From Cymbidium sinense (lineage: Eukaryota; Streptophyta; Magnoliopsida; Asparagales; Orchidaceae), in NCBI GenBank assembly GCA_021442155.1, contig JAKCPB010000333.1:124001-188000 (forward strand): DNA of 64,000 nt. Reading direction: 5' to 3'. The notes beneath the pieces are model-generated. The model made no database searches, had not been told where the DNA came from, and saw nothing but the letters and a program-made list of their open reading frames with translations. The translations under genes were made by a program, and so were the position numbers. Of this stretch, positions 2,797 to 61,888 are shown piece after piece. How positions within the stretch are numbered: position 1 is the first letter of the stretch; each line of letters begins with the position of its first letter.

Positions 2797-3239
2797 TTTT
2801 AAACAAAGAACAAATTTATATTCAACATTTCTTTATTTTAATTTCATCAACCAAGTAACATACCAAGTTCTCTAAGACACAAGCGACGACATAGATAAAA
2901 AAATGAGCATGCAAGCAAATCAAAACCAGATAATTAGAATCATCTCAAACTTATTGGTCCATATGGTCAGATCATTCTTTAGTTTCTCAGTTCCCATCAA
3001 AATAACCTCTTGATTAGCGGGATCCACCATCATATCCCCGATCTCTCCCTTCTCCACCACCACGGCTATAACCTCCATCGGTCCTCCTGCCTCCATAACC
3101 ACCAATGCCACGACCACCACCTCCATATCTACCAGCACCTCCAAATCCCCCATGATCACTCTGATAACCACTGCCTTTGCCTTTGCCTCCCCTGGGTAGG
3201 TTGACGTGATGTTCCACCATCAAGGTTATGCCCATTCTT
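2797..3239 (-). pseudogene. GRP fragment copy 1 (RRM end, Gly-rich tail, 3' UTR)
   Basis: Read on the minus strand from 3239, the sequence opens with NGHNLDGG, matching the end of the RRM (NGQNLDGRNIT-type) of plant class IV glycine-rich RNA-binding proteins, which are GRP7-like RNA chaperones. A frameshift follows. The Gly/Arg/Tyr tail is then readable in another frame, with GYSRGGGEGRDRGYDGGSR before a stop and a remnant of the usual DGNWRN end. The 3' UTR runs to about 2797, where a short T-run on + corresponds to AAAA on the sense strand. The RNP2 and RNP1 motifs and the start codon are absent, so this is a 5'-truncated, frameshifted pseudogene. It is flanked on both sides by TTTAGGG repeats. 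The plus-strand frames over it are shadows. Confidence 0.85.
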
Positions 3240-5484
3240 AGGGTTTAGGTTTAGGTTTAGGTTTATTAGGTTTTAGGGTTTAGGTTTATTTTTTAATTTA
3301 TTTAGTTAATTTTAGTTTAGGTTTAGGGTTTGGGGTTTAGGCTTTAGGGTTTAGGGTTTCAGGTGTAGGGTTTAGGGTTTTAGGGTTTATGCTTTTTGGG
3401 TATAGGATTAGGGTTTAGGGTTTAGGGTTTAAGGTTTAGGGTTTAGGATTTAGGGTTATAGGGTTAGGGTTCAATGTTAGTTTTAGAGTTTAGGGTTTAG
3501 GTTTTAGGATTTAGGGTTTAAGGTTTTTTTTTTAAAATTAAGTAAACTAGTATGTTTAAGAGTATTTAGTTTGTATTTTATTTATTTCAGTTTATTTTAT
3601 TTTTTTATTTTTATTTAGGTTTATTTTTTATTTTTCTTTAGTTTAGTTTATTTATTTTAGGTTAATTTATTTTAGTTTAGGTATTTTATTTTAGTTTATT
3701 TTTTAGGTTTAGGTTTAGGTTTATGTTTATTTTTTAGTTTAGTTTTATTTTAATTTTATTATTTAGGTTTAGGATTTATTTTTTTTTTTTATGTTTAGGA
3801 TTAGGTTTTATTTTATTTTTTTAGGTTTAGGTTTTAGATTTTTATTTAAGGTATTTTTAGGTTTTATTTTTTATTTTAGGTTTAGGTTTATTTTTAGTTT
3901 ATTTTATTTTATTTAGTTTAGGGTTTTGGTTTAGGTTATATTTATTTTAGTTTAGGTTTAGGTTTGTTTTATTTTGTTTATTTTAATTTTATTTTAGGTT
4001 TAGTTTTATTTTTAGTTTAGGGTTTGGGCTTTATTTTTTATTTATTTTTAGGTTTTACTTAAAGGTTTATTTTTTAGGTTTAGGTTTTTATTTAGTTTTT
4101 ATTTTATTTTTATTTTACATTTAGTTTTTTCTTTATTGAGGTTTTGTATTCTTAGCTTTTTTTTTTTTTTTTAGTTTAGTCTAGGTTTTTATTTAATTTA
4201 TTTTAGTTTATTTTTATTTTTTAAATTTAATTTAATTTTTATTTTTTGGTTTAGGTTTTAGTTTATGTTTTTATTTTATTTTATTATTTCATTTTATTTA
4301 GGTTTAGGTTCTTTTGTTTATTTTATTTTTAGGGATTATTTAATTTAGATTTAGGTTTGTAGGTTTTTTAGAGTTTAGGATTTATGGTTTAGGGTTTAGG
4401 TTTTAAGGTTTTAGGATTTAGGGTTGAGGGTTACGATTTAGGGTTTAGGGTTTATTATTTAGGCTTTAGGGTTTTGGGTTTTTAGGGTTTAGGGTTTAAG
4501 CTTTAGGGTTTATGGTTAGCTTAGGGATTAGGGTTAGTTTCGTGTTTAGGGATTAGGGTTTAGGTTTACTATTTATGGTTTTTTTATATAAATTAAGTAA
4601 ACTAGTAGGTTTAAGGTTGTTTAGTTTAATTTTTATTTTTTTTAGTTTATTTTATTTTTTTATTTAGGTTTATTTTTTATTTTATTTAGTATTGTTCATT
4701 TATTTTAGGTTTATTTATTTTAATTTATTTTTTTAGGTTTAAGTTTAAGTTTAAGTTTATTATTTAGTTTACTTTTATTTTTATTTTATTTCGTAGGTTT
4801 AGGTTTTATTTTTATTTTTAGGTTTAGGTTTTTATTTTATTTTTTTTAGGTTTAGATTTTAGGTTTTAATTTTTGGTTTATTTTTAGGTTTTTAATTTTA
4901 GTTTAGGTTTAGGTTTATTTTATTTTATTTAGTTTAGGGTTTAGGATTAGTTTATTTTAGGTTTAGTTTTAGGTTTTATTTATTTTGGTTTAGTTTTTTT
5001 AGTTTAGGTGTATGTTTATGTTTATTTTGTTTATTTTAGGTTTTGGTTTTTTTTAGTTAAGGGTTTAGGTTTTTTTATTTATTTTTAGGTTTTCTTTTTA
5101 GGTTTATTATTTATGCTTAGGTTTTTATTTATTTTTTATTTTAATTTATTTCAGGTTTACTTTATTTTTATTTTACATTTAGCTTTTATTTTATTTAGTT
5201 TTTTTTTATTTTTAGGTTTATTTTATTTTTTTTAGTTTAGTTTAGGTTTTATTTATTTTATTTTATTTTAGTTTTATTCTTTATTTTATTTTATTTTAGG
5301 TTTAGGTTTTAACTTAGGTTTTAGTTTTGGTTTTATTTTATTTTATTATTTTATTTTATTTAGGTTTAGGTTTATTTATTTTATATTATTTTTAGGTTTT
5401 ATTTAGTTTAGGTTTAGGTTTTAGATTTTTAGGGTTTAATTTTAGGTTTAGGGTTGAGGTTTAGTTTAGGATTTAGTGTTTTGG
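3240..5484 (+). repeat. Telomere-derived satellite array, block 2
   Basis: This block sits between GRP copies 1 and 2 and holds two complete subunits. It runs: TTTAGGG-rich 3310-3530, boundary motif at 3535, T/A-rich block to about 4350, TTTAGGG-rich 4370-4570, boundary motif at 4590, T/A-rich block to about 5410, and a short TTTAGGG stretch before the next GRP fragment. C is nearly absent on the + strand. Subunit spacing from boundary motif to boundary motif is about 1.05 kb. Confidence 0.9.
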
Positions 5485-5555
5485 TTTTTTTTAATAGAGA
5501 ACAAATTGATTCAACATTTCTTTTTTTTTTGATTTCATCAACCAAGTAACAAACT
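5485..5555 (-). pseudogene. GRP fragment copy 2, 3' UTR remnant only
   Basis: Only the distal 3' UTR survives: a T-run, then the conserved stretch that includes GATTTCATCAACCAAGTAAC on +. Homology stops abruptly at about 5555, where non-array sequence begins (AGGGAAGTGAGGTAATC). The coding part that the other copies carry to the right is missing. The simplest reading is that the retroelement arm starting at 5556 truncated a once longer copy. Confidence 0.8.
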
Positions 5556-9100: not shown

Positions 9101-9365
9101 TCAAATTGAACTTGAGGTTTGGTTTGAGAAGGTGAACATTGATTGGATTTGGGTTGTAGGGTAGGTGGATTATCGTAATCCCTAAGGCATAACCTAATCC
9201 TATTGTTAACCCTTCTAAGTCTTTAGGCATAGGTTAAGTGTTTACCTACTTGCTGGAAGTGTCTTATGACTAGAGATATCTTAGTGTCTAGAAGACTCCT
9301 AAGTTTAAGATGGGAAGATTGAATCCGCACTCCAAAAGAGAGGTCAACATGCCTTAGGCTCCATA

Positions 9366-9704
9366 GTGTCGCCCTTGTGGATAGATGATTGGAAGACCAA
9401 AGCTAAGTTTTACATTATAGACCTGGATACATCTTTCAATGCTTTGCTTGGGAGACCGTGGATACATGAGAACAACATATTCCATCTCTATGTCGATGAA
9501 GTTTGTGAGAGGTGGGATCATTGTGTCAAAGGAGATCTCAAGCTATTTATAGTTCACGAGGTCGACATAAATGATGATATGGCTTACTACCTCCCTCAAA
9601 ATCAACAAGTCTATTCTCATGAACTTAGCCAAAGTTTAAAAATAAAAGAAAAAGAAAAAGAAGAAGAAAGAGAAAAAGAAAAGAAAATAGAATATGAAAT
9701 ATAA
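9366..9704 (+). pseudogene. Gypsy aspartic protease remnant and charged linker
   Basis: The frame reads SPLWIDDWKTKAKFYIIDLD and continues TSFNALLGRPWIHEN, which is the strongly conserved end of the retropepsin-like domain in plant gypsy elements (the NALLGRPWIH signature). The catalytic DTG part upstream is not found, because the sequence to the left is the non-coding arm. After about residue 85 the frame becomes a Lys/Glu run and ends at a TAA. The minus-strand Ser/Phe-rich frames at 9617-9852 are shadows of this Lys/Glu run. Confidence 0.75.
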
Positions 9705-9997
9705 AATAAAAGGGAGTGGAAATAGATTTGGCGGAGGAAGTGGAGCCTGATATTAATTTCCACCCACAGGTCGTTACTCCATTTGAACATATGGGTAAAA
9801 TGACTTGACCTCCACCAGGTAGAGGAAGAGGCCAATTCAGAGGCAGTCCCAAGGGTGGAAAACCTCCTTATTGGCCACCCAATAGAAGATATGTCCCATA
9901 CTAGAGACAGCTATCCATATAGACTTAGAATCTAGTTCATGGATGAGTCTTATATGGTTAGCACACCACCGCCTCTTTTAGTAGTAGATTCCTTGAG

Positions 9998-10680
9998 GTG
10001 ACACTTGAGCCAGATAGCGATGTAGACCGGGCTCCAAAGCTAAGCATAAGTGTATCAAAGTCTATATATGAAATAGTTAGGAATCATTTGGGAACCTTAG
10101 TTCTAATCTCACTTTTCTCTCAAAAAGCTGAGGGTTTGGTAGTTAAGGAAGCCCCTAAGTCATCCATAGGTGTCAAGACTCAGAGGTTCTTTCTAGGAAC
10201 ATCATGCTCAAGTAAAGAAGTTAATGTAGAACTTGAGGATGATTCATATAAAGATTTAATTGAATCACCATTTGATTGGTACTTTCCTTGTGTTCATAAT
10301 TTAGCAAAGAAAGGGTTAATCCCACATACTTAGTCGAAGCACAGGTCAGACTGCTTCAAAAGAATATGGAAGAATAAATGAAAAAGCTCAATCAATACCA
10401 AGACTAGGATTCAGTATAGTTGGTCCAATAGATGATGACAATTACTACTTAGTCATCAACAATCATTTGAAATCTGATAGGTTCTTTTCAAATCACATTA
10501 AATCATATGAGGAGTTGAGCTTAGAAACTTCAGATGATGCAAATGACTTTGAAGTCAAAGATGCGCCGAGTTTGAAGAGAGATCAAGTCAACCATCGATG
10601 AGCTCAAGGAAATCAACTAAGAAATTGAAGAAGATCCATGCCCGACATACATCAATTCATCATTGAATGAAATTGAAACT
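9998..10680 (+). pseudogene. Gypsy PR-RT linker remnant
   Basis: The first frame (9998-10333) begins MTLEPDSDVDRAPKLSIS and holds acidic and serine-rich sequence that ends at a TAG. A second frame follows with PRLGFS-type sequence (about 10401), DDDNYYLVINNHLKS, and then TIDELKEIN and PCPTYINSSLNEIETNDL (about 10593-10690). This long, weakly conserved linker between protease and reverse transcriptase is typical of Tat-like elements. The match to the linker rests on position and general character, not on a catalytic motif. Confidence 0.55.
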
Positions 10681-11340
10681 AATGACTTAGTTAAGCTATT
10701 GACTGAGTTTAAGGACTGCTTTACTTGAAGATAGGAAGAGATGGCAAGATTGGCTCCTGACATAGTGGTCCATAAACTAGCAATAGAGCCTATTGCTAAC
10801 CCTATCAAGCAAGCTCCTAGACGCATGCAATTAGACAAAGAACAATAGGTCAGTTATAAAGTCAAGAAACTTATCAATGCTAGCTTCATCCGGGAAGAAA
10901 AATACCCTACCTAGTTAGCTAGCATCGTCCGAGTTAAGAAAAAGAGTGGTCAAATTCAAATATGTGCCGATTTTATGAATTTAAATAAGGCATGTCCAAA
11001 TAATGAATTCCACTACCAATATCGGAGATAAAAGGTGGACATTGTCTCATCTCATGTAGTCTTCTCTTTCATTGATGGCTCATCTTGATATAACCAAATA
11101 AAGATGGCCCATGAAGCTGAAAGAAATGCTACTTTTCGAACCTCAATCAAAATCTATTGCTATAAGGTCATGCCTTTCAGCCTTAAAAATGTCAGTGCTA
11201 CATACCAATGGGCTATGACTCGAATCTTCAATAAACTCATTCATCATCAAGTCAAGTGCTATGTCAATGATGTCGTGGTCAAAAGTAGAGAGAAGGAAGA
11301 CCATCTATTTGAGTTTAGAGTAATTTTTGAATAATTAAGA
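10680..11340 (+). pseudogene. Gypsy reverse transcriptase remnant, active site YVND
   Basis: Recognisable segments are LVKLLTEFKDCF, then after a frameshift LAPDIVVHKLAIEPIANPI, KQAPRRMQLDKEQ-stop-VSYK, IREEKYPT-stop-LASIVRVKKKSGQ, CADFMNLNKACP, and YNQIKMAHEAERNATFRTS with VMPFSLKNVSATYQWAMTRI. The catalytic box, YVDD in functional relatives, reads CYVNDVVVKS near 11264-11290, so one of the two paired aspartates is lost. The TAG at YPT-stop-LAS stands where relatives have Trp (TGG). The enzyme is certainly dead. Confidence 0.85.
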
Positions 11341-11389
11341 TAATTTAACGTCAAAGTGAACCCACTGAAGTGTGCATTCGGAGTAGCTT

Positions 11390-11919
11390 TAGGGAATTCT
11401 TTGGGTTTGATGTCCGACACCAGGGAATCAAAATCCATTTAGAGAAGATCAAGGCGATATTAGAAATGCCACCCTCTAAAATTTTAACTCAACTCAGATC
11501 ATTCCAAGGGTGGTTAGATATCTAAGATGCTTTATATCCAACCTATCGGAAGATGTCACCATTCTCGACTTGAAAAGGACACTAAGTTTAAGTGGGATGA
11601 TAAGTGTGAGCATTAATTCAAAGACATCAAGCATTACCTAATGACTCCGCTAGTTCTAGCAACCCCTATCCTAGGAAAGCCACTCATACTTTACATTGCT
11701 GCATTAGATGACTCCCTTAGTGCTTTGTTTGCCCAAGCCAACAATGAAGGGAAGAAAAATGCACTCTACTACCTTAGCCATCGTCTAATCCCTACTGAGT
11801 CTAATTATCCACCCATTGAGAAGCATTGCCTAGCTTTAATATTTGGATCCCAAAGGCTACAGAACTACATGCTTTCTCATAAGGTGAACTTAATCTCTAG
11901 GATCAATCCACTACAGTAA
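11390..11919 (+). pseudogene. Gypsy RNase H domain remnant
   Basis: The open part begins at 11641 with TPLVLATPILGKPLILYIAA and continues with LDDSLSALFAQ, KNALYYLSHRLIPTESNYPP and IEKHCLALIFGSQRLQNYML. This is the RNase H module that follows the reverse transcriptase in plant gypsy polyproteins. It ends at a TAA after about 92 residues. Upstream, 11390-11640 holds the RT connection with frameshifts (FRSFQGW-type residues near 11500). Confidence 0.75.
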
Positions 11920-12109
11920 CTCATGACATGGCCGATGCTATCCAGACAGTTGGCTTAACCGTCCATGATCCTCTTGCAATTTGACATTACTGCATTCTCC
12001 TGTGAAAGGACAAGCTCTAGATTTCTTAGTAGCACACCCACTTCTTGCGACTCTTAGTGATGATCTCCACGATGAACAAATCATGAACTTAGGGGATACT
12101 AGCATTCAC

Positions 12110-12520
12110 TCGGGAGATGTACTTTGATGGTGCTTCCTCTCAAAAGAGAAGAACCACAATCTACTATTCCATGCGGGGTAGGAATAGTTCTTTAACTTCA
12201 ACCATGATGTGATGAGATTCTCATATCATCTGTCCAGCACCAACAACAAAGCTGAATATGAGGCTATGATTGCCGTTTGAGAGTTAGTTTACTCAAGGAT
12301 CCAAACATCAACATCTTTGGGGATTCTCGCCTAGTTATCAACCAAAAGGGTCCTATAAGGTTATAAAGCCCAAGCTCCACCACTACCACAACTACATCAT
12401 GAAGTTGTTGGCCCAAATCCTAGAGGTTACCATTTATAAGATTCTTCAAGGATAGAATGCCATAGTGTATGCTCTAGCCAAGCTTGCCAAGGAGTAGGCA
12501 TGTTTGAAAGATGAGTCCAT
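12110..12520 (+). pseudogene. Second (archaeal-type) RNase H remnant
   Basis: Three separated pieces can be read in different frames: MYFDGASSQK near 12118, NNKAEYEAMIA near 12246, and INIFGDSRLVINQ near 12308. These correspond to the D-E-D type active-site segments of the extra RNase H domain found only in the Tat lineage of plant gypsy elements. Several indels separate the pieces. The acidic residues in the three motifs are still present, but no continuous frame links them. Confidence 0.65.
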
Positions 12521-12779
12521 ATAAATAAATGTCAAAATAGATAAGTCTTATATCTTATTGATATTAAACTCATCAAAAAGTACTTTCTTGAAGGGAAGGT
12601 TTCCATTGCCAAGAAGGACGAGGAGTTAGATTAGAGGCAATCATTTATGGATTACCTAAATAAAGGTAAACTACCTCAAGAGAAGTCCCATGCCCATTAG
12701 ATGAAGCAAAGAGCACTGTCCTATGCTCTTGTGGATGGTGTCTTGTATTAGTAGTCTTTCGATCATATTTGGTTATGTT

Positions 12780-13830
12780 GTTTAGACAAGCACGAAGCCC
12801 GTAAGATCGTGACCAAGGTACACTTTATATGTGGAGCCAACCATTCTAGTCAAGATGAAAGCCAAGATCAGGATACTACGGTCATTGATGATCAAGATTT
12901 CATTGATATGGCTAAGCAATGCCACCAATGTCAAATACGGTGTGGTCTACACCAACCACCCAACATTTTACATCATACATTGGCCTCATGGCCATTCGAG
13001 TGTTGGGGTACCGACATAGTGGGTCCGATTGATCCTCCTTCTTCCAAGGGTCATCGGTTCATCTTAGTTGCTATTGATTACTTTTCCAAATGGGCAAAGG
13101 TGATTCTGCTCAGAGAGGTCACAGCTTAGTATGTGCTCCAATTTTATAGGAACATTATCATATATAAGTTTAGAGTTTCTGAATGAATTAATTCTAATAA
13201 TTATACTACATTCAAGAGCACCGAGATCAACAACCTTTCCTGGAGACAACATAGATTAGAGATATTCTACCATCAACTACCTGAGGGCAAACAGTTTAGT
13301 AGAAGCCTTCAATAAAACTCTCATCCAAATACTAAAGAAGACACTCGATAATAATAAGCAATAGTGACATAAATAGTTAGTTGAAGCCTTGTGATCCTAC
13401 CACACCACATATAAAACTCCAACTCAGTCTACTCCTTTCTCCTTAGTGTATAGGTTCGAAGCTAATCTACCCACTAAGGATAGTTGTGGGTAGCAAGATC
13501 ACAATAGAGCAGAATGCTAAGTTATGGTTAGAAGAGCTCGGTTTGGAGGGGAGATGATCGTGGGTATGCCAAAAGCTCTAGTTGTACAAAGCTAAAATGA
13601 TTCAAGCTCACAACAAGTTGGTATGTCCTAGAGCCTTTTAAGTAGGAGAGCTTATTTTAGTTTTAAGGAGACTGATTTTTTCCCATCGTAAGATGGGGGC
13701 AAAGTTTGAACTCACTTGGGAAGGCTCTTTTGCCATAGAGAAGGCCTACCAACGAGGATCTTATCAGCTTATTAATCATAGAGGAGAGTGCCCAATGCTT
13801 CCATTCAATGAGCTCTACTAAAATAAATAT
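12780..13830 (+). pseudogene. Gypsy integrase remnant to C-terminal end
   Basis: Part of the zinc-finger side reads DMAKQCHQCQIRCGLHQPPN, and the CxxC is present. The core starts with ASWPFECWGTDIVGPIDPPS and HRFILVAIDYFSKWAK, carrying the first catalytic Asp. After a TAG at 13128 the frame decays. The C-terminal segment is readable again from about 13640 (GELILVLRRLIFSHRKMGAK, then FELTWEGSFAIEKAYQRGSY) and ends near 13830 with FNELY-stop-NKYY. Length and order fit a full integrase that has lost its frame in several places. Confidence 0.8.
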
Positions 13831-24399: not shown

Positions 24400-24483
<84 letters not shown>

Positions 24484-45326: not shown

Positions 45327-45387
<61 letters not shown>

Positions 45388-45965
45388 TTATTAGGTGTGG
45401 GGTTTATTAGTTTTAGTTAGGTTTTAGTTTAGTTATTATTTTTTTTGTTGTTAGTTTAGGGTTTATTTTTTTTAGTTTTGGGTTTTATTAGTTTTATTTT
45501 ATTAGTTTTATTAGTTATTCTTAGTTTAATTTAGTTTTTATTTATTATGTTTTGGGGTTGTTTTAGTTTAGTTAATTAGTTTAGGGTTTCATGTTTTTTT
45601 GAATTTTTTGTTTAATTTTAATTTTAGTTTAGTTATTATTGGGTTTTATTCGGTTTGGTTTTATTAGTTTATTTAGTTTTATTATTTATTAGTATATTAT
45701 TATTATTATTATTACTATTACTTTTTTAGTTAGTTTAGTTTATTTATTAGGGTTTTATGGTTTTAGTTAGTTTATTAGGTTTTAGTTATTATTATTAATT
45801 TTAGTTATTTTTATTAGTTTTTGTTTTTAGGTTTATTATTAGTTTTATTATTATTTATTTATTTAGTTTTTATAGTTTTAGTTAGGTTTTATTATTAGTT
45901 ATTAGTTTATTATTAGTTTTAATATTATTATTAGTTTAATTATATTTTATTAGGTTTTGGTTTAG
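44995..45965 (+). repeat. C-free block unlike the telomere repeat, ~390-bp duplication
   Basis: The sequence is made of T, A and G with only a handful of C, but its words (TTAGTTATTATTGGG, TTTGGTTTTATTAGTTTA, GTTGTTAGTTTAGGG) are not TTTAGGG derivatives. It contains an imperfect tandem duplication: the passage starting near 45130 (TATTAGTTATTCTTAGTTTA) returns near 45511, and the one near 45228 (TTTTAGTTTAGTTATTATTG) near 45617, a period of about 380-390 bp. No open frame. Its edges against the array are gradual. Confidence 0.75.
45328..45386 (+). repeat. (ATT)n microsatellite, about 20 units
   Basis: An essentially perfect ATT run lies inside the first unit of the C-free block. A shorter ATT run stands at the corresponding place in the second unit (about 45695-45720). 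Confidence 0.95.
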
Positions 45966-48530
45966 TGTTTAGGGTTAGCTTAGGGTTTAGGGTTTGATTA
46001 CGGTTTAGGGTTTTAAGGTTTAGGGTTTAGGGTTTAGGGTTTAGGGTTAGTTTAGGGTTTAAGGTTTAGGGTTTAGGGTTTAGGGTTTAGGGTCAGGGTT
46101 TAAGATTTAGTGTTTAGGGTTTAGGGTTCTTTTTTAAATTAAGTAAACTGGTAGGTTTAGGTTTATTTAGTTTATTTATTTTATTTAGTTTATTTTATAT
46201 TTTTATTTAGGATTATTTTTTTTATTTGGTATAGTTTTTTATTTTATGTTTATTTATTTTAGTTTATCTTTTTTATTTTAAATAATTTTTTAGGTTTAGT
46301 TTTATGTTATGTTTATTTTTTAGTTTAGTTTTATTTTTATTTTATTTTTAAGTTTTATTATTATTAGGTTTAGAGTTTAGGTTTTATTTAAGTTTAGGTT
46401 CAGGTTTTTTAGTTTATTTTTTTAGGTTTATGTTTTAGGTTTTATTTTAGGTTTATTTTTAGCTTTTATTTTTTTAGTTTAGGTTTAGGTTTATTTTTAG
46501 TTTATTTTATTTTATTTAGTTTAGGGTTTAGGTTTAGTTTATTTTAGGTTTATGTTTAGGTTTTATTTATTTTAGTTTAGTTCATTTTAGTTTAGGTTTA
46601 GGTTTATTTTAGGTTTAGGTTTATTTTTTTTAGTTTAGGGTTTAGGTTTTTATTATTTATTTATTTATAAGTACAACATTTTAGGATTAGGTTTTATTTA
46701 GTTTTTATTTTATTTTATTTTATTTTTATTTTACGTCTAGTTTTGATTTTATTTAGCTTTTTTATTTTTAGGTATATTTTATTTTTTAGTTTAGGTTAGG
46801 TTTTTATTCATTTTATTTTAGTTTAGTTTTTATTTTTTATTTTAATTTATTTTTAGGTTTAGGTTTAGGTTTAGGTTAGGTTTTAGTTAAGGTTATTATT
46901 TTATTTTATTTTATTTATTTTATTTTGATTTATGTTTTTTTATTTATTTTATTTTTAGGTTTTATTTAGTTTAGGTTTACCTTTTTAGGCTTTTAGAGTT
47001 TTGGGTTTTGGGTTTAGGTTTAGGGTTTTGGGTTTAGTGTTTGGGGTTCAGGGTTTAGGGTTTTGGGTTTTGGGTATTGGGTCTTAGGGTTTAGGGTTTA
47101 TTGTTTAGGGGTTAGGGTTAGTTTTAGGTTTTAGTGTTTAGGGTTAGGGTTTTTCTATTTATTTATTTTAAATTAACTAAATAAGTAGATTTATGTGTAT
47201 ATTTTTTATTTTTTATTTATTTTATTTTATTTTATTTTTATTTTTCTTTTTATTTAGGTTTATTTTAATTTTTATTTAGTTTAGTTTATTTTTTTAAGTT
47301 TATTTATTTTAGTTTAAGTATTTTATTTTTGTTTATTTTTTAGGTTTAGGTTTAAGTTTAGGTTTTTTTAGTTTAGTTTTATTTTTATTTAATTTTTTAT
47401 GCTTCCATATTATTTTTTATTTTTAGGTTTTGGCATAGATTTTTATTTTATTTTTTTAATCTTTAGTTCTAGGTTTTTATTTTAGGTTTATTTTTAGGTT
47501 TTATTTTCTAATTTAGGTTTTGGTTAATTTTTAGGTTATCTTATTTTATTTAGTTAAGTTTAGGTTTAGGTTTTGCTTATTTTAGGTTTAAGTTTAGGTT
47601 TTATTTATTTTAGTTTAGTTTATTTTTGTTTAGGTTTAGGTTTATTTTATTTTGCTTATTTTATTTTTATTTTTGGTTTAGGTTTTTTTTAGTTTAAGGT
47701 TTATGTTCTATTTATTATGTATTTTTAGGTTTATTTTTTAAGTTTAGGTCTTTATTTAGTTTTTATTTTAGGTTTATTTTTGGTTTATTTTATTTTTATT
47801 TTTCGTTTAGTTTTTATTTGGTTTAGGTATTTTATTGTTAGGTTTATTTAATTTTTTTTATTTTAGTTTAGGTTATTTTATTTTAGTTTATGTTATTTTA
47901 TTTTTAGGTTTAGGCTTAGGTTTTAGTTTAGTTTTTTATTTTCTTTTATTTTTTTTTAATTTATTAGTTTAGGTTTATTTATTTAGTTTAGGTTTAGGTT
48001 TAGGGTTTTAGGGTTTAGGGTTTAGGGTTTAGGTTTAGGTTTTAGGGTTTAGGGTTTTTTTAGGGTTTAGGGTTTAGGGTTTAGGGTTTAGGGTTTTTTT
48101 AGGTTTTTTAGTTTAGGTTTAGGTTTATTTAATTTATTTTTATTTACTTTGGTTTATTTTATTTTATTTATTTAGGTTTTATTTAGTTTAGTTTTATTTT
48201 AGGTTTATTTATTTTTTAGTTTAGGTTTTTTTATTTTAGTTTAGTTTTAAGTTTATGTTTAGGTTTATGTTTATTTTTTAGTTTAGTTTATTTTATTTTA
48301 TTATTTAGGTTTAAGTTTTATTTTTTATTTTTTTTGGTTTAGGTTTAGGTTTTTATTTTATTTTTTTAGGTTTCGATTTTAGGTTTTTATTTTAGGTATA
48401 TTTTAAGGTTTTACTTTTTCATTTAGGTTTAGGTTTAATTTTAATTTAATTTATTTTATTTAGTTTCGGGTTTAGGTTTAGTTTATTTTAGGTTTAGGTT
48501 TAGGTTTTATATATTTTAGTTTAGTTTGTT
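45966..48530 (+). repeat. Telomere-derived satellite array, block 9
   Basis: TTTAGGG-rich parts lie at 45966-46130, 46985-47160 and 48000-48100, with T/A-rich blocks between. The boundary motif is clear at 46136 and decayed at 47169 (spacing about 1035 bp). The block ends abruptly at about 48530, where duplicate B starts. Confidence 0.9.
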
Positions 48531-49401
48531 TCCCTAGTTGATACATCCCCAATGGGTACATCCCAAATAAATCTTGAAATCAAACTCAAATCCAAATCTC
48601 TAGATAGCCTAAACATGCTTCCCTAGTGGAAGGTTCATATACCCGATCCCCAGGGGACTCAAGCCCATATTTGTAGTAGATATGCCTCCACACCAATTAA
48701 AACAAAATAAATTAAAGTCAATTTGATCTTAATCCTCGGTGGAATATTGATCCTTATTCCTAGTGGATCTTCTTTCTATTAATCATATAATCAAATAAAA
48801 ATCAAACCTTATCCCCAACAGATTTTTTTCTTTTATGCCCTCGACATAGACCCCTCACATGTCATGTCAAATGCATGTGTGATCCCCTAGCGGATCTTCC
48901 TCCAAGTCCTTGACATGGAAATCTCATCAAATCTTATTTCTTCTCTTATGCACACCTTTAATACTTCAACCAAAGCCTAACAACGTATTCATTAAAATTA
49001 CATCAACTTAACATTGTAATCAACATTTTAAGATTCGTGATGGTGCAAGCTTAAACTAATTATACAATATCATGGTAAACATATTACATTGTGAATTAAC
49101 ACACTATATTATATTATAATATATGTTGTTATATTATAATTTGCTATAATATAATATATTGTCTAACATTACACCTCATTAGAATCACTTAAAAGGAACA
49201 AATAATAAAATTTTCATAAAATATGAATAATGTTCATTTTGGATGTAAAATTGTTATTTTTCTATTAGAAATGGTACAAAATAGCATAATTTTGGTGTTG
49301 CTTGTGTGTGCCATGAATTTGGCTAAATTCTTCCATCGATGTATTATATGTAATTAAAACATACTAAAATGTACAATATCATTTAGTAACATACCACCAC
49401 A

Positions 49402-49443
<42 letters not shown>

Positions 49444-50570
49444 TTATATTGTTATGTACATTATATTTATATGCTTTCATATATATTATCTTACATTACA
49501 CCTTAAAATGAATCACTTTAAGCAAAAATTTATAAAATTTGGTTGAAAAATGAACATTTATTTTGGATGCAAAATTCCATTCTTTTGATTAAATGACACA
49601 CCATAGCACACCCCCAATGATGTTCCCTAAAGCTTACCTTAAATCTCACCAAATCTCATCATCTCATCCTATAAATTAGTATTTTTATGAATTATACCAG
49701 TACAAACTCTACTACATCATACTATAACAAACTAAAATATGCTAAAAATAAGTAGTAATACACAATAGTATGCTATAATGCATGATGCTACACTATGTTA
49801 TGGCATCTATATTATAATACACTATAACATATTATATTATATTATATTGCATATCACATCACAAGGGATTGCTTAAGATAAAAAATCATAAAATTAGTCT
49901 AAATAATAAAAAAAACTATATATTTTAGTAGTATCACTTACATATTTTAATTTGAAATAATATATTATGATGTCATGCTCTACCTATTATGAAGTTTGCC
50001 AAATTCTACCATTTTAAAGTCTAAATCAACATTTTTATAAATAATGCTTGTGTAGGCTCGACTTCATGATTGTAAAATACTAAAATAATTTAAAATGCAT
50101 GGAATGATATATTATGATATATGACGTTATACTATGCTACAACATATAATATTTATTTTGAACATAAAATCTTACATTTCAGACTATAAGTGGCATAGCA
50201 TACCTTTGGTACTACAACCTAATTCCCACTTCAAATTAAAAAAATTTCATCATCTGGTTTATTAAATCAATATTTTTATGATTTATATTAATATAGACTA
50301 TAGGGCATAATACTATAATATACTAAAACATTTCAAAATATTTTATAACATCCTAAAAAATATCACTACATGCTAAAATATATTATGCTACATTATACTA
50401 TAATATATGGTATTATAATATGATTTAGGGTTAGGGTTTAGGGTATTCAAATCTCTAATAGTTAAGCGAAAGTCACTTGAAGATATTTTCTTTAGCTACC
50501 ATAACTATGTTCGGATTAGGTCATTCTTTAGATCTACTCTTAATGGCATCTTTATTCAATATTTAGGGTT
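48531..50570 (+). repeat. AT-rich segment, duplicate B (partner 23490-25610)
   Basis: Collinear homologue of 23490-25610. It starts inside the retroelement-like words (ATCCCCAATGGGTACATCCC) directly against T/A-rich array sequence, so the left breakpoint is sharp, while duplicate A continues leftwards into 3 kb of related sequence. It ends with CATCTTTATTCAA and runs into TTTAGGG repeats. No gene is supported. Confidence 0.85.
49405..49440. repeat. (AT)n microsatellite, 18 units
   Basis: Counterpart of the 64-base AT run in duplicate A, here 36 bases. Confidence 0.95.
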
Positions 50571-50712
50571 TAGGTTTAGGGTTAGTTTAGGGTTTTGAGT
50601 TTGTAGTTTAGGGTTTAGGTTTTAGGGTTTAGGATTTTATAGTTTAGGGTTTAGGGTTTAGGGTTTAAGGTTTAGTATTTTAAGATTAGGGTTTATGGTT
50701 TAGGGTTTAGGT
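50571..50712 (+). repeat. TTTAGGG-rich array, block 10
   Basis: Short TTTAGGG-rich link between duplicate B and GRP copy 8, matching the link between duplicate A and copy 3 but shorter. Confidence 0.85.
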
Positions 50713-51181
50713 TCAAATTTAACATTTTTTCTTTTCAATTTTATCAAGCAAGTAGAACCCCAAGTTTTCTAAGACACAAGCAATGACATAGATAAAAAAT
50801 GAGCACCCATAGAGCAAATCACAAACCCAAGATAAGTAGAACTATCTCTACTGTAAAGACAGAGTTTCATAAGAAGAAAATTGGATCGGCCATTCTTCAA
50901 TTTTTCCAGTTCCCATCAGAACCACCCCCGCCTCTCGAGTAGCAAGATCTGTCATCATACCCCTGATCTCTCCCTCCGCCACCACCACAAGTGTAACCTG
51001 TGTCGCTCATCCTACTTCCATAACACCCAATGCTCTGACCACCACCCCCATATCCACTAGTACCTCTAGATCCCCCACCACCCTTGCGATAATTGCCACC
51101 TCCGCCTTCCTCTCTGCCACCAGATCTAGACTGAGCCTAGTTGACAATGATGTTCCTACCGTTAAGGTTCTACGCCTTCTT
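50713..51181 (-). pseudogene. GRP fragment copy 8, tail frame still open
   Basis: This is the best-preserved coding tail. On the minus strand the frame has a TAG at NGQ (K-A-stop-NLNGRNIIVN) and another at 51137-51139, where relatives have a Gln codon. It is then open from 51136 to the TGA at 50897-50899, which is 79 codons. The open part contains AQSRSGGREEGGGGNYR, GGGGSRGTSGYGGGGQS, GGGGGRDQGYDD and ends SYSRG-like then GGGGSDGNWKN, the normal end of the protein with Trp kept. There is no Met in the frame and no RRM, so it is still a fragment. The distal 3' UTR end is eroded at 50713 and lacks the T-run. Confidence 0.88.
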
Positions 51182-52992
51182 AGGGTTTAGGGTTTTATAG
51201 TTTATGGTTTAGGCATTAAGGTTTAAGTTTTATGGTTAGGGTTTAGGGTTTTGGGTTTAGGGTTTTAGATTTAGTTTAGGGTTTAGGGTTTAGAGTTTAG
51301 GGTTTAGGTTTAGGGTTTAGGTTTAGGGTTTAGGGTTTAGGTTTAGGTTTTAGGTAGGTTTATGTTTATTTAGTTTATTTAGTTTATTTTATTTATTTTA
51401 TTTAGTTTATTTATTTATTTTTTATATATTTTTTTATTTTTTATTTTATTTATTTTATTTATTTTAGGTTTATTTAGTTTTGGTTTTATTTTATTTATTT
51501 TATTTTTTAGTTTAGGTTTAGGTTTATGTTTATTTTTTTTTAGGTTTAGGTTTTATTTTTTATTTTTAGGTTTAGGTTTAGGATTTTATTTTATTTTTTG
51601 AGCTTTATATTTTAGGTTTTTATTTTAGGTTTATTTTTAGCTTTTATTTGTTAGTTTAGGTTTCAATATTTTTTAGTTTATTTTATTTTATTTAGTTTAG
51701 GGTTTAGGTTTAGTTTATTTTAGGTTTAGGTTTACGTATTATTTATTTTAGTTTAGGTTTAGGTTTATTTTATATGGTTTATTTTTGGTTTAGGTTTTTT
51801 TTAGTTAAGGGTGTAGGTTTTTTTTTAATTTATTTTTAGGTTTTACTTTTAGGTTTATTTTTTAGGTTTAGGTATTTATTTAGTTTTATTTTAGGTTTAT
51901 TTTATTTTAGTTAAATTTTATTTTAGTATTTTATTTTTAGTTTAATTTTATTTTATTTTTATTATTTAATTTAAGTTTAGGTTTTATTTATTTATATTTA
52001 ATTTATTTATTTATTTTATTTTAGGTTTTTTTAATTTAGGTTTATTTTTAGGTTTAGGGTTTAGGGTTTTAAGGTTTAGTTTTTTTTATTAGGTTTATTT
52101 AGGTTTAGGTTTATTTATTTTATTTTTTTTTTAGGTTTAGGTTTTTTAATTTAGTTTTAGGTTTTTATTTTAGGTTTAGGGTTTATTTTAGGGTTTAGGG
52201 TTTTTAGGTTAGTTATTTTAAGTTTAGGGTTTAGGTTTTAGTTTTTTATTTAGTTTAATTTTTTATTTTTATTTTTTTAGGTTTTATTTTTTTATTTTTA
52301 GTTTAGGTTTTTTATTTTTATTTTTTTTAGTTTAGGTTTTAGGTTTTTTTTTTAGTTTAGGTTTTTATTTTTAGGTTTATTTTTAGTTTAGGTTTAATTT
52401 ATTTTTTACTTTATTTTTTTTTATTTTTAGGTTTAGGTTTAATTTTTTAGGTTTAGGTTTATTTATTTTATAGGTTTAGGTTTTATTTATTTTTATTTTA
52501 GTTTTAGGTTTTATATTTTTATATTTATGTTTTTATTTATTTATTTTTTATTTTTTAGTTTAGGTTTTATTTATTTATTTTATTTATTTTAGGTTTATTT
52601 ATTTTTTTTGGGTTTATTTTTTTATTTATTTTTATTTTTTTTATTTAGTTTAGGTTTTTATTTATTTTTTTAGATTAGTTTTATTTTTATTTTATTTTAT
52701 TTTAGGTTTAGATTTAAATTTAGGTTTTAGTATAGGTTTTATTTAATTTATTTTATTTTATTTAGGTTTAGATGTTTTATATTTATTTTATTTTAGGTTT
52801 TATTTGTTTAAGTTTAGTTTTACATTTTAGGGTTTAGGTTTAGGGTTAGTTGGGGTTTATGGGTTTAGGGTTTAGGGTTTAGGGTTTAGGGTTTAGGTTT
52901 TAAGGTTTAGGGTTTAGGGTTTAGGGTTTAAGGTTTTGGGATTTAGGGTTTAGGGTTTTTAGTGCTTAGGGTTTAGGGTTTAGGGTTTAGGG
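51182..52992 (+). repeat. Telomere-derived satellite array, block 11
   Basis: TTTAGGG-rich at 51182-51350 and 52830-52992, with a long T/A-rich stretch between them containing short TTTAGGG islands near 52050 and 52160-52220. No clear boundary motif survives. GRP copies 8 and 9 start about 2.28 kb apart. Confidence 0.88.
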
Positions 52993-53352
52993 TTTTTTTT
53001 TTGAAAGAGATAAATTCAGATTCAACATTTTTTCTTTTCGATTTCATCAACCAAGTAACACACCAAGTTTTCTAAGACACAAGTGAGGACATAGATAAAA
53101 AAAGAGTACACGTAATGCAAATCAATAACTTTAGATAATTAGAACCCTCTATATTATAAAGACAATTCCATAGCGGTCCATTCTCTTGGTTCTCCGGTTC
53201 CCATCGGGCCTCTTGAGGGTAGATCAACCATCATATCTCGATCTCTACCTCTGCAGTTGTAACCTCTGTTGCTCCTCCTACCTCCATAATCACCACTGCT
53301 TCGACAATCACCTCCATAACCACCAACACTTCCAGGTCCCCCACCACCACTA
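52993..53352 (-). pseudogene. GRP fragment copy 9, truncated at RRM side
   Basis: Starting from a long T-run at 52993, the 3' UTR and most of the glycine-rich tail are present (segments such as GGYGGDC and GGRRSNRGYNC can be read), but homology stops near 53352 after the GGG-rich part. The NGQNLDG end of the RRM is missing, and T/A-rich array sequence (AACTTATTTAGTTACCTTA) follows. That sequence normally lies 50-80 bp beyond the breakpoint in other copies, so this is an internal deletion across the breakpoint. Confidence 0.82.
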
Positions 53353-56300
53353 TGTTTTAACTTATTTAGTTACCTTATGTTTAGGTTTAGGATTTGGGGT
53401 TTATGGTTTAGGATTTAGTGTTTAGGTTTTAAGGTTTAGGGTTTAGGGTTTATGGTTTTAAGGTTTATGCTTTTAGGGTTTAGGGTTTATGGTTAGGGTT
53501 TAGGGTTTACGGTTTAGGGTCTAGGGTTTAAGGTTTAAAATTTAGGGTTTATTTTTTTTTTTTTAGGGTTTAGATTTTAGGTTTATTTTTTTTAAAATTT
53601 AGTTTGGTTTAGGTTTTAGGTTTATTTTAGTATTTTATTTTTTTAGGTTTATTTATTTAGTTTAGGTTTATTTTAGTTTAGGTTTAGGTTTAGGTTTTTT
53701 TATTTTAAGTTTATATTTTTTTAATTGGTTTAGGTTTATTTTTTTTAGTTTAGGTTTTATTTTATTTAGGTTTAGGTTTAGTTTAGGTTTAGGTTTATTT
53801 TTAGTAGTTTTTTATTTTTATTTATTTTTTTGGGTTTAGGTTTATTTTTAATTTAATTTATTTTTTTTATTTTAGGTTTAGGTTTTAGTTTATTTAGGTT
53901 TATTTTATTTTTATTATTTTTTATTTATTTTAGGTTTAGTTTTTTTTTAATTTTATTTATTTTTATTTTACATTTAGGTTTTTTATTTTTAATTTATTAT
54001 TTTTTTTAGTTTAGGTTTTTTTTATTTTTTATTTTTTAGGTTTATTATTATTTAATTTAATTTTATTTTAGTTAACTTTAGTTTTAGGTTTTATTTTATT
54101 TTAGGTTTATTTTTTATTTTTTATTTAAATTTTGGTTTAGGTTTTTATTATTTATTTTATAGTTTATAGTTTAGGGTTTAGGGTTTAGGTTTTATGGTTT
54201 AGGGTTTAGGGTTTAGGGTTTTATTAGGGTTTAGGTTTAGGAGTTAGTTTTAGGTTTAAGGTTTAGGTTTAGGGTTATCTTAGGGTTTATAGTTAGTTTA
54301 GGGTTTAGGGTTTAGTTGGAGTTTAGGAGTTTAGGTTTAGGTTTAGGGATTTTAGGTTTAGGTTAGTTTAGGGTTTAATTAGGGTTTAGTGTTTAGAGTT
54401 TAGTTTAGGGTTTAGAGTTTAGGTTTAGGGGTTTAGGTTTAGGGTTTTTTAAAATTAGGTTTTAGGTTTATTTAGTTTAGGTTTATTTTTTATTTATTTT
54501 TTTATTTTTTATTTAGTTTAGGTTTATTTATTTTAGTTTATTTATTTTATTTTAGGTTTTATTTTTTGTTTTATTTATTTATTTAGGTTTATTTTTTTAG
54601 TTTATTTTTTTTTTAGGTTTTAGGTTTATTTTATTTTAGTTTAGTTTAGGTTTTTTATTTTTTTTTTTTTTTTTAGGTTTAGGTTTTATTTTAGGTTTAT
54701 TTTTTATTTTTAGGTTTATTTTATTTTATTTAGTTTAGGTTTAGGTTTTATTTTGGTTTAGATTTTTTTTAGTTTAGGTTTATTTTTTTTAGTTATTTTA
54801 TGTTTATTTATAGGTTTATTTTTTTAGGTTTTTTTATTTAGTTTTTTAGTTTATTTTAGTTTACATTTATTTAGGTTTATTTTATTTTATTTTATGTTTA
54901 GTTTTATTTTTGTTTAGGTTTTATTTTAGGTTTATTTTACTTTTAGTTTAGGTTTATTTATTTTAGTTTAGTTTATTTTAGTTTATGTTTAGGTTTATTT
55001 CATTTTATTTATTTTAGGTTTAAGTGTTTAATTTAAGTTAAGAGTTTAGGTTTTATTTTTTTCTTTATTTCTATGTTAATTTTTTAGGTTCAAGTTTTTA
55101 TTTAGTTTTTATTATATTTTATATTAGGATTATTTTATTTTTATTTTATGTTTAGTTTTTATTTTTAGGTTTATTTTATTTTTTAGTTAAGTTCAGGTTT
55201 TTATTTATTTTATTTTAGTTTAGTTTTTATTTTTATTTTATTTTATTTTTAAGTTTAGGTTTTTATTTTATTTAAGTTTTTTTATTATTTTTATTTTTAG
55301 GTTTTATTTAGTTTAGGTTTAGGATTTTAGGTTTTTAGGGTTTAGCTTTTATGGTTTAGCTTTAGGGTTCAGTGTTTAGGCTTTAGGGTTTAAGTTTTTT
55401 AGGGTTTAGGGTCTAGGGTTTACGGTTAGCTTAGGGTTTCAGGTTAGTTTAGGGTTTTGGGTTTTGGGTTTAGGTTTAACTGAGGGTTTAGGGTTAGTTT
55501 AGGGTTTAGGGTTTAGATTAGTTAGGATTTTTAGAAGGTTTAAGGTTTAGGGAGTTTAGTTTAAGTTTAGTTTAGGGTTTAGTGTTTAGTTTAAGAGTTA
55601 GTTTAGGTTTAGGTTTAGGGTTAGTAGTTTAGGTTAGGGTTTAGGTTAGGTTTATTTAAGATGGATTTAATATTTATTTATTTTATTTTATTTTATTTTT
55701 TATTTTTATTTAAGTTTATTTTTTTATTTAGTTTGGTTTATTTATTTTAGTTTAGGTTTTTTATTTTAGTTTATTTTTTAGGTTTAGGTTTAAGTTTATA
55801 TTTATTTTTTAGTTTAGTTTTATTTTAATTTTTTTTAGGTTTAGGTTTTATTTTATATTTTTAGCTTTAGCTTTAGGGTTTTATTTTACTTTTTTAGGTT
55901 TAGGTTTTAGGTTTTTATTTTAGATTTATTTTTAATTTATTATATTATATTTAGTTTATGGTTTAGGTTTGGTTTATTTTAGGTTAAGGTTTAAGTTTAT
56001 TTATTTTAGTTTAGTTTATTTTTGTTTAGGTTTAGGTTTATTTTATTTTCTTTATTTTAGGTTTTATTTTTTATTTAGTTTTAGGTTTACTTTTTAGGAT
56101 TAGGTCTTTATTTAGATTTTATTTTATTTTTATTTTATTTTATTTAGGTTTATTTTATTTTTTAGTTAAGTTTAGATTTTTCTTTATTTAATTATAGCTT
56201 AGTTTTTATTTTTCACTTTTTAATTTTTAGGTTTAGGTTAAGGTTTATGTTTTCATTTTATTTTATTTATATATTTATTTTGGTATAGGTTTTATTTATT

Positions 56301-58244
56301 TTATTTTTAAGTTTTATTTAGTTTAGGTTTATGTTTTAGGTTTTTAGGTTTTTAATGTTTAGGGTTTTGGGTTATTTTAGGTTTTGGGTTTAAGGTTTAG
56401 GGTTTAGGGTATTTTAGGGTTTAGGGTTTAGAGTTTTAGGATTAGGGTTTAGGGTTTAGGGTTTAGGATTTAGGGTTTAAGGCCTTTTTTTATTAATTAT
56501 GTAAACTAGTATGTTTAGGTTTATTTAGTATATTTAGTTTATTTTTTTATTTATTTTAGTTTGCTATATTTTTTATTTTTATTTAAGTTTATCTTTTATT
56601 TTTATTTAGCTTATTTATTTACTTTTGGTTTATTTATTTTAATTTAGGTTTTTTATTTTAGTTTATATTTTAAGTTTAAGTTTAAGTTTAAGTTTAGGTT
56701 TATTTTTTAGTTGAGTTTTATTTTTATTATATTTTTAAGGTTCATGTTTTATTTTTTATTTTTAGGTTTATATTTATGTTTTTATTTTTACTTTTTAAGT
56801 TTAGGGTTTAGATTTTTAATTTAGGTTTATTTTAGGTTTTATTTTTTAGTTTAGGTTTAGGTTTATTTTTAGTTTAGTTTATTTTATTTAGTTTATTTTA
56901 GGATTAGGTTTAGGTTTTATTTAATTTAGTTTAGGTTTAGTTTTATTTTATTTTTATTTTAGGTTTATGGTTTTCTTTTTTTTAGATTAGGGTTTAGGTT
57001 TTATTTTTTATTTATTTTAAGGTTTATTTTTTAGGTTTAGGTTTTTATTTAATTTTAATTTTATTTTATTTTAAGTTTATTTATATTTTTATTTTACGTT
57101 TAGTTATTATTTTATTTGGATTTTTTATTATTAGGTTTATTTTATTTTTTTAGTTTAGTTTAGGTTTTTATTTATTTTATTTTAATTTATTTTAATTTAT
57201 TTTATTTTTAAGTTTAGGTTTAGGTTTTAGGTTATGTTTTTATTTTATTTTATTTTATTTTGGTTTTCAGTTTTTATTTATTTTATCTTTAGGTTTTATT
57301 TAGTTTAGGTTTAGGTTTTTAGGGTTTAGGGTTTAGGGTTTATCCATCAGAGTTTAGGGTATAGGGTTTTAGGGTTTAGGGTTTAGGGTTAAGGTTTATG
57401 GATTAGTTTTTAGGTTTTGGGTTTAGGTTTTAGTTTTTAGTTTAGGTTGCTTTAGGTTTATGGTTTAGGTTTAGTTTTTTTAATTTTAGTTTTAGGTTTA
57501 GGTTTATTTTGTTTAGTTTTTATTTAGGTTTATTTTATTTTATTTTAGTTTAGGTTATTTAATTTTTTTAATTTAGTTTATATTTTTAGGTTTATTTATT
57601 TTAGTTTAGGTTTTATTTTAGTTTATTTTTATTCATTAGGTTTATGTTTATTTTTAATTTAGGTGTTTTATTTTTATTTATTTTTTAGTTTAGGTTTTTG
57701 GTTTAGCTTTAGGTTTAGGTTTAGGTTTTATTTTATTTTTTAGGTTTTATTTTTATTTTATTTAGTTTAGGTTTTTTATTTTTAGTTTATTTTATTTTAT
57801 TGGTTTAGGTTTAGTTTAGTTTATTTTTGGTTTAGTTTATTTTATTTATTTTAGTTTTTTTTTAGTGTGGTTTAGGTTTATTTTATTTTATTTATTTTTT
57901 TTGGTTTAGGTTTTTTTTTAGTTAGGGTTTAGGTTTATTTTATTTATTTATTTTTATTTTTAGGTTTATTTTTCAAGTTTAGGTTTCTATTTAGTTTTTA
58001 TTTTATTTTATTTTAGGTTTATTTTATTTTTTATTTAGTTTAGTTTTTTATTTTATTTATGTTTTTATTTTAGGTTTTTTTATTTTTTAGTTTAGTTTTG
58101 TTTTATTTATTTTATTTTATTTTAATTTTATTTTTTTTTTTATTTTATTTATTTTAGGTTTGGGTTTAGGTTTAGGTTTAAGTTTAGGTTTTTAGTTTAT
58201 TTAGGTTTAGGTATATTTATTTATTTTATTTTTAAGTTTTACTA
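53353..58244 (+). repeat. Telomere-derived satellite array, block 12
   Basis: TTTAGGG-rich parts lie at about 53390-53570, 54165-54450, 55335-55670, 56345-56485 and 57320-57480. Boundary motifs are decayed near 54450 and clear at 56493 (TAATTATGTAAACTAGTATG). GTTTAGGA variants are frequent at 54230-54440 and 55495-55680. The array is interrupted at 58245 by a LINE fragment. Confidence 0.88.
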
Positions 58245-59110
58245 GTTGTGTCCAAACACAAGGAGGATTGACAAAATATTTTCCTATTTAGTTGGATTAC
58301 ATCAGGATCATCTTTAAGCCCTTATCTTTTTTTGCTTTAGTTATGGATGTTCTTATTAGGCATTTACAAGAAGATATGCGTTGGTGTATGCTTTTCTTGA
58401 TGACATTCTTCTTGTTGATAAGACTAGAGAGAGTATAAACTTGAATTATGGAGGTCAACTCTAGAGTCTAAAGGTTTTCATTTAAGTAGATCTAAAATTG
58501 AATATATGGAGTGTAATTTTAGTTGTAGAAGTTCTAGTGGTAGTGTTGTGACATTAGGTGGACAAGTCATTAATAAGAGTGAGTGTTTCAAATATTTAGG
58601 CTCTATTGTCCAAAATGATGGTGAAATAGATGGAGATGTTATTAGTAGAATTCAAGTTGGATGGTTGAAGTGGAGGAATGCATATGGCTTTATTATGTGA
58701 TAAATGTTCCACTTAAACTTAAGGAAAGTTTTATAAGATGGTGGTAAGACCTAATGACTTATAGTGCAGAATGTTGGCCAATAAAAGAGAAGCATAAGGC
58801 TAAGTTAAGTGTTAAGATGAGGATGGGTGGATGAGCTTTACTCTTAGATAGAATGCAAAATGAGTATATTTGGGAAAAAGTTGGGTAGCTCTGGTAGATA
58901 AGATTAGGAGAGTTTAGATGGTTTGGCCACATAAAGCGTCAGTCATCGATGACCATTAGGAGTAGATGCATTGCCTTATGTTAAGAAAGGTAAGAGACCT
59001 AAAAGACTTGGTTAAGATGTATAAAATGATCTTAGTATACTTGATTTAAATGAGAATTTGACACATAATAGGACCAATGGAGATGAAGGATTCATGTAGT
59101 AGGATTGTTC
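58245..59110 (+). mobile_element. LINE reverse transcriptase C-terminal fragment, decayed
   Basis: On + the sequence starts with SVRTQGGLTK-like residues. It passes through FALVMDVLIRHLQEDMRWCM and LFLDDILLVDKTRES, where the paired Asp of the non-LTR F-x-DD box is kept. It continues ESKGFHLSRSKIEYMECNF, ECFKYLGSIVQNDGEIDGDV, GWLKWRNA, then after frameshifts AECWPIKEKHKA, RWFGHIKRQ and RPKRLG near 59000. This order is that of the end of the reverse transcriptase plus C-terminal region of plant LINEs. The 5' part and endonuclease are absent. Several TAG stops and frameshifts show it is dead. No poly(A) tail or target-site duplication is evident at 59110. Confidence 0.85.
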
Positions 59111-59349
59111 TTGTTGTTTTATTTAGTTTAGGTTTAGGTTTTAGGTTTAGGTTTAGGTTTTTTAGGTTTAGGAGTTTAGGGTTTAGGTTTTTTTAGGTTT
59201 AGGATTTAAGGTTTTTTATTTTTAGGTTAGGGTTTAGGGTTTAGGTTTAGGGTTTAGGTTTTAGGTTTAAGGTTTAGGTTTAGTTTATATGATTTAGGGT
59301 TTAGTTTAGGGTTTTTGTTTAGGTTTAAGTTTAGAGGTTTATGGTTTCT
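59111..59349 (+). repeat. TTTAGGG-rich array, block 13
   Basis: Short array piece between the LINE fragment and GRP copy 10, made of TTTAGGTTTAGG and TTTAGGG variants. Confidence 0.85.
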
Positions 59350-59786
59350 CTTTTGTTTAGTAAATAATAAATTTAGATTAAACTTTTATTTTTTTTTTAT
59401 TTCATCAACCAAGTAACACACCAAGTTTTTTAAGACACAAATGATGACATAAATAAAAAATAAGGACGCATAAAGCAAATCAAAAATCCTGGATAACTAG
59501 AACCATCTATACTGTAAAGACGTAATTTCATAAGCAACAGAACAAATCGATCATTCTTCATTTTCTCCAGTTCCCATAAGAACCACCCCAGTCTCTGTAG
59601 TGGGATCAACCATCATATCCTCGATCTCCCTCCATCACCACCCTTCTGTAACCTCCATGGCTCCTCATATTTATGCCACCACCTCCATATCCACCACCAC
59701 CTCTAGATCCCCACCACCACTTGCCTTAGCCTTAAATCTAGGCATGGTTTGGTGATGTTCCCGTCGTTAATGTTTTGCCCAATCTT
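59350..59786 (-). pseudogene. GRP fragment copy 10
   Basis: The copy starts at the shared breakpoint (GCCCAATCTTAGGG on +). The RRM end and tail contain many substitutions and deletions, and only short pieces such as GGGDLEVVV-frame or GYGGGG equivalents are readable. The 3' UTR (CATCAACCAAGTAACACACC on +) is clearly conserved. The UTR end at 59350 has a broken T-run. It is the most diverged long copy. Confidence 0.8.
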
Positions 59787-61858: not shown

Positions 61859-61888
61859 TTTTTTTTTGGGAACCACATATAGGGGAAT

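Follow-up and report, generated by a model that had tools for sequence, protein, structure and literature searches.

Probably thousands of copies of a host-gene 3' end in telomere-like arrays of Cymbidium sinense: one apparent retroposition and dispersal with a retroelement-derived body

Processed pseudogenes made by the machinery of long interspersed nuclear elements (LINEs) are marked by 5' truncation, a poly(A) tail and a T-run on the primed strand, and Pack-type elements are transposons that capture gene fragments. The 3' regions of Ogre retrotransposons are described as carrying tandem repeats that seed satellites and can grow to long blocks (PMC7004042). Here we describe a stretch of 64,000 nucleotides from the orchid Cymbidium sinense (contig JAKCPB010000333.1, our C248:124001-188000, hereafter the window), in which the 3' end of a gene for a glycine-rich RNA-binding protein (GRP) recurs within arrays derived from the telomere-like repeat TTTAGGG. 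The assembly searched comprises 3.53 Gb in 2,174 contigs.

The GRP fragment is like LINE-mediated retrocopies in its 5' truncation, its A-tail and the T-run on the primed strand, and unlike them in that its site is a tandem array with which it was later multiplied, giving descendants that probably number in the thousands (40 verified). As in Pack-type capture a piece of a host gene was multiplied by a carrier, but here the piece looks RNA-derived, is A-tailed and stands repeatedly inside a tandem array. Plant interstitial telomere-like repeats share with this system TTTAGGG-type sequence away from chromosome ends, on many contigs and at many positions, whereas the repeats considered here are degenerate, interspersed with T-rich blocks and part of a repeated composite that includes a gene fragment. 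Satellites derived from Tat/Ogre elements are likewise tandem arrays downstream of a Ty3/gypsy pol that are dispersed with the element; the array here differs in being telomere-like, T-rich, tens of kb long and present on both sides of the adjoining body, in holding a host-gene retrocopy, and in that no long terminal repeats (LTRs) were found (PMC7004042). All the parts are of kinds already known; their combination and the en-bloc inheritance appear to be new. A literature search returned no description of a GRP tail combined with a telomere-like array, which is weak evidence of absence, subscription papers being mostly outside its coverage.

The explanation that we find probable is one LINE-type retroposition into an array, followed by limited multiplication and then by en-bloc dispersal of a composite. 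The mRNA of the GRP gene L029 would have been reverse-transcribed once, with a 5' truncation that falls in exon 2, and the product, poly(A) tail included, would have entered a T-rich tandem array at one of its TTTAGGG-type blocks. The likely agent is LINE machinery, with the TTTAGGG strand as the primer of target-primed reverse transcription. This array adjoins a body of about 20 kb with remnants of a Ty3/gypsy pol. The GRP-bearing units of the array would have multiplied to several copies within it, and a composite made up of array, GRP stub, body and a further array, about 40 kb long or longer, would then have dispersed genome-wide as a block, so that copies at matching positions correspond between loci.

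Array DNA makes up about 40 kb of the window, in three stretches, given on the plus strand: a left array (1..5485), a right array (25583..48530) with a counterpart on C3, and a third stretch (50560..61858). In all of them T-rich blocks alternate with TTTAGGG-rich blocks, the median spacing being 0.70-0.98 kb, and the exact heptamer accounts for only 8-11% of array bases; in the whole window exact TTTAGGG occurs 573 times on the plus strand and 4 times on the minus strand. The DNA at about 5552-25582 and at 48545-50560 is non-array. The former, on the plus strand, is the body of about 20 kb, homologous to bodies on C3, on C1 (two regions) and, with gaps, on C14. Its end adjoining the right array, which we call flank B (23518..25582, plus strand), has a second copy at 48545..50560 in the same orientation that is 83-84% identical to the first.

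Nine substantial copies of the GRP 3' fragment and one stub of about 70 bp, all on the minus strand, are present in the arrays of the window. Their coordinates, obtained with four queries (the parent gene and three of the window's own copies), are 2794..3190 in the left array; 25854..26270, 30640..31014, 39233..39701 and 41499..41957 (positions 1, 2, 4 and 5 of the right array, all in the tree described below), with a 305-bp copy third in order at 33838..34142 that was too short for the tree (<340 bp); and 50712..51179, 52996..53352 (without its 5' part) and 59352..59721 in the third stretch. When the copy at 2797 was compared with the window by BLAST, eight other places matched at 71-77% identity in alignments of 343-419 columns, with E values of 2.3e-40 or lower; at 5483-5554 the match was confined to the 72-bp 3' end (83.8%, E 6e-16). 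An earlier note on this DNA had counted ten copies of the same piece in one TTTAGGG-derived array. All ten places were recovered, and its observation is confirmed with two corrections. The item at 5485 is not a separate copy; it is a truncated stub consisting of the last part of the 3' untranslated region (UTR) and the A-tail (about 5486..5551, minus strand, alignment to 5554), fused to the non-array body at a joint that is shared with C3 and with all 40 places of the genome that were scored. The array is not one but three stretches, interrupted by the non-array DNA and followed from 61859 by a LINE-like element. The idea that a transposon had split a single GRP copy at 5551 was rejected, as no remainder of such a copy was found in the window and the joint recurs elsewhere.

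The majority reading of the copies corresponds to the C-terminal part of a plant GRP, and its protein search matches are plant GRPs with PF00076. As the earlier note had already stated, the captured fragment lacks a start codon; it begins past the RNP1 region. None of the window copies read gave a clean single-frame read-through, their frames being broken, and a coding function is not evident from the sequence. Neither the fragment peptide nor four open reading frames of the window had a Pfam match.

The parent, whose identification had been proposed as a check, is L029 on C13, an intact GRP gene and the best hit of a protein search of the genome (150 of 64,197 candidates scored). It encodes 166 amino acids in two exons (RRM_1, E 3.4e-22), and among the database matches of its protein the top two belong to orchids (Dendrobium chrysotoxum and Phalaenopsis equestris) and the next to a cactus. 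The captured span of 491 bp (L029 1596-2086) comprises the end of the RNA recognition motif (RRM), the glycine-rich tail, the stop codon and the 3' UTR; it lies wholly within exon 2 and the 3' UTR and has no intron position inside. A 321-bp probe from the part that was left behind (L029 1290-1610; exon 1, intron and start of exon 2, nearly all before the breakpoint) had a single candidate in the genome and a single match, itself. With a query from the captured part (window copy 25854) there were 8,294 first-look candidates; 40 of these were scored and all 40 matched at 81-100%, so the genomic copy number of the GRP tail is probably in the thousands. A duplication of the whole gene was rejected, as its upstream part gave only one candidate. 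Capture from several GRP genes was also rejected: the 150 scored protein candidates included no further gene whose 3' UTR matches, and six other matches were confined to residues 11-81. Nor did these 150 candidates and the 40 scored DNA candidates reveal copies that group with different functional GRP genes, or equal numbers of copies with intact RRMs. An apparent match to sequence downstream of the gene was the A-tail itself.

From the fetched loci 78 copies were harvested, 76 of them distinct; 63 of the distinct copies are longer than 340 bp and 47 entered a full-length alignment (L006 duplicates part of the C14 region, and the three latter counts exclude duplicates). The 5' joint could be located in 57 of the 63, with TAA just before it in 45 and CTAA in 40, and in none of the 57 does gene-upstream sequence continue past the breakpoint, which lies in exon 2. 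At the 3' joint, located in 60 of the 63, at least six A's in a row occur within 24 bases in 50 copies, with the start of the run within 8 bases in 45. This run is about eight long and stands at the end of the 3' UTR similarity, where the gene reads TGATCATTCTG, that is, the tail is not encoded. All 47 distinct full-length copies share a 6-bp gap, two more short gaps and two substitutions relative to the gene, and their consensus is 92.3% identical to it (442/479), a comparison that is neutral as to whether copies or gene have changed. TTTAGGG-type repeats flank 54 of the 63 copies on both sides and 7 on one side, the flank being too short in 2. About half of the differences between copies and gene are G>A or C>T changes (a count that includes duplicate copies), which suggests deamination.

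The single capture that had been proposed is supported by the common 5' breakpoint, the common unencoded A-tail and the differences common to the 47 copies, and one 5'-truncated reverse-transcribed mRNA would account for both breakpoint and tail; that the capture looks RNA-mediated is an addition to the earlier account. Along the plus strand the T-run comes after TTTAGGG repeats and before antisense GRP, an order that fits priming of reverse transcription by the T-rich strand. The LINE-like element lies antisense in the same array with its 3' end first (61859..64000, minus strand, continuing to about L011:5870, with RVT_1 pieces in L011); its T9 joint follows GGGTTTAGGG, and its polarity is that of the GRP retrocopy. 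LINE machinery may have made the GRP copy, and if the copy is a retrocopy, a poly(A) site of the parent gene is to be expected at the position of TTTGTTCTTTGTT.

The dispersal of the arrays can be followed by their junctions. Flank B stands at the array edge in 7 of the first 8 loci, the window's own included, and the body, up to about 20 kb of it, adjoins arrays on C248, C3, C1 (two regions) and C14. Between the window and C3 the bodies are 91.8% identical over 17.5 kb, the right arrays are collinear and 82.8% identical over 14.2 kb, and the fusion of stub and body at window 5551 is exactly the same. A 301-bp probe across this joint gave 3,117 candidates, 40 of which were scored, and all 40 match across the joint; a flank-B probe gave 6,678 candidates, and here too all 40 scored places match, at 84-100%. 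The scored places of both probes are on many contigs and along whole chromosomes. Joint and flank B are about 20-21 kb apart on C248, C1:218.1 Mb and C1:234.8 Mb, and likewise on C3 by fetched sequence. A boundary at window 5785 suggested by the joint probe was rejected as a mismatch near the query end. As for identity, the arrays of C3 and C248 have diverged further from each other than the bodies have.

A tree, also proposed in the earlier note, was built from the gene and 37 of 64 copies longer than 340 bp, the other 27 being from short loci; its bootstrap is not fully settled and 15 of 35 inner branches are open, and two of the C1 arrays are local duplicates of each other. Copies at matching positions on C248, C3 and C1 form five clades, each with support of 100/99. 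Neighbouring copies are not each other's closest relatives in C248b, C3 and C1, as they would be in a simple satellite, and the pattern is less resolved in C14 and the other C248 arrays. The mean difference is 0.124 between copies at the same position of different loci (27 pairs) and 0.218 between different positions of one locus (34 pairs), so multiplication inside the array seems older than dispersal; the position labels drew on spacing, joint signatures and the tree, and a shuffle (0/10,000) is therefore partly circular, the tree being the independent evidence. Matching-position copies on several contigs, together with fixed junctions to the body of about 20 kb, indicate that the arrays dispersed en bloc, and the recurrent junctions and positional grouping suggest that the unit of spread is the composite and not the GRP unit alone. 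On this evidence array and body appear to travel together as one composite, at least about 40 kb long. The earlier interpretation is thus partly supported: the copies do stand in tandem arrays, but their spread as part of a satellite has to be revised in favour of dispersal of whole arrays with a body.

Several findings weigh against this reading. The five position clades do not take in the C14 copies or those from the first and third arrays of C248, so that at least one other family exists, and C14 lacks the stub joint, the body extending leftward there instead. Joints between array and body also occur at other points, and there is local tandem repetition on C1, with which recombination fits as well as transposition. 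Self-comparison of the body revealed no long direct terminal pair that could be LTRs, the outer ends of the unit lying beyond the sequence, and ends of a composite element were not found.

The composite may be a tandem macrosatellite with body and array as its unit, spread between chromosomes by recombination or segmental duplication and not by transposition. We regard this as a serious possibility, somewhat short of an even chance: the order body-array-body-array on C248 and C14, the unit of about 16 kb repeated locally on C1 and the missing LTRs and element ends are all in accordance with it, while the joints at all 40 scored places, on many contigs and along whole chromosomes, are not easily reconciled with it. 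Another possible identity of the composite, if a tentative one, is that of a very large Tat/Ogre-type LTR retrotransposon with the array downstream of pol that is still retrotransposing. Remnants of a degenerate Ty3/gypsy-type pol lie at 9309..13129 on the plus strand, that is, 9.3-13.1 kb, with Pfam matches to reverse transcriptase (RVT_1, above cut-off, 11089-11334), RNase H (RT_RNaseH_2, above cut-off, 11617-11919) and an integrase-like segment (12755-13129; rve at 0.023, below cut-off, the C3 counterpart passing Integrase_H2C2). The segment 9309-9704, without Pfam match, we take to be protease-like from a motif. In pol orientation one array follows downstream from 25.6 kb and another lies upstream. 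The Tat/Ogre label of the body is our assumption from motifs, which speaks against this possibility, as do the lack of a recognised LTR pair within the body, the arrays on both sides of it, the inverted arms around pol and the unusual size. In its favour are the dispersal of the places over many contigs and the layout itself, pol followed by an array, which is described for Ogre elements (PMC7004042). Between macrosatellite-type spread and retrotransposition of the composite we see about equal likelihood.

A bolder version would be a giant mobile composite, about 40 kb long or longer, in which a telomere-like array and a second array enclose the retroelement-derived body of about 20 kb, and which copied itself genome-wide with the internal order of its arrays intact. 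Its fragment of host mRNA would have entered by reverse transcription primed on the TTTAGGG strand, perhaps while the telomeric DNA still lay at a chromosome end and had not yet joined the element. We consider this version unlikely.

For the capture itself the alternative is that the fragment was taken up as DNA, for example by break repair or a transposon event, and that the A-run is there by chance. The target being a tandem repeat, a target-site duplication cannot be told from the array, and none is seen; the captured span has no intron position, which leaves the A-tail as the main sign of RNA; and on the strand in question the array around the copies is rich in A. A run of at least six A's is absent in 10 of the 60 located copies, and joint placement allowed up to 6 errors, with at least one 5' placement (C1a_35646) plainly wrong. 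These points count against retroposition, but a run of about eight A's where the 3' UTR similarity stops, in 50 of 60 copies, makes uptake as DNA improbable. Least probable of all is one capture followed by unequal exchange as in an ordinary satellite, each array being built locally, for which the tandem copies in one orientation, the local tandem of body and array on C1 and the copies outside the five groups could be cited, and against which stand the strongly supported cross-contig position groups, the smaller difference at the same position of different loci (with labels that are partly circular) and the stub/body joint fixed at every scored place.

If retroposition and dispersal as a composite are correct, the captured gene tail, whose breakpoint and A-tail are both defined, is a marker of one event in a repeat poor in landmarks. 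With its help, sequence may show in what order events took place, what unit spread and how telomere-like arrays decay. Arrays that resemble a local satellite can then be inherited block by block. The GRP copies run antisense to the pol of their carrier, and probably thousands of GRP 3' ends in this orientation could, speculatively, be a source of small RNAs against the parent gene.

The body has some further features. Diverged inverted arms (65-77% identity) lie around pol at 5765-9347 and 14101-18537, and the segment 14101-21710 is absent from the C14 body. On the P-strand of C1:30760000-30809999 (L017-L021) body and array are repeated as a unit with a period of about 16 kb, and the array joins body position 19675 twice. 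Short tandem duplications of the body are found at 8668-9024, 14437-14923 and 22625-23328, with periods of 175 and 179 bp and one pair of about 300 bp, and the duplication at 22625-23328 is adjoined by repeated CCCCAGTGGAG-like motifs.

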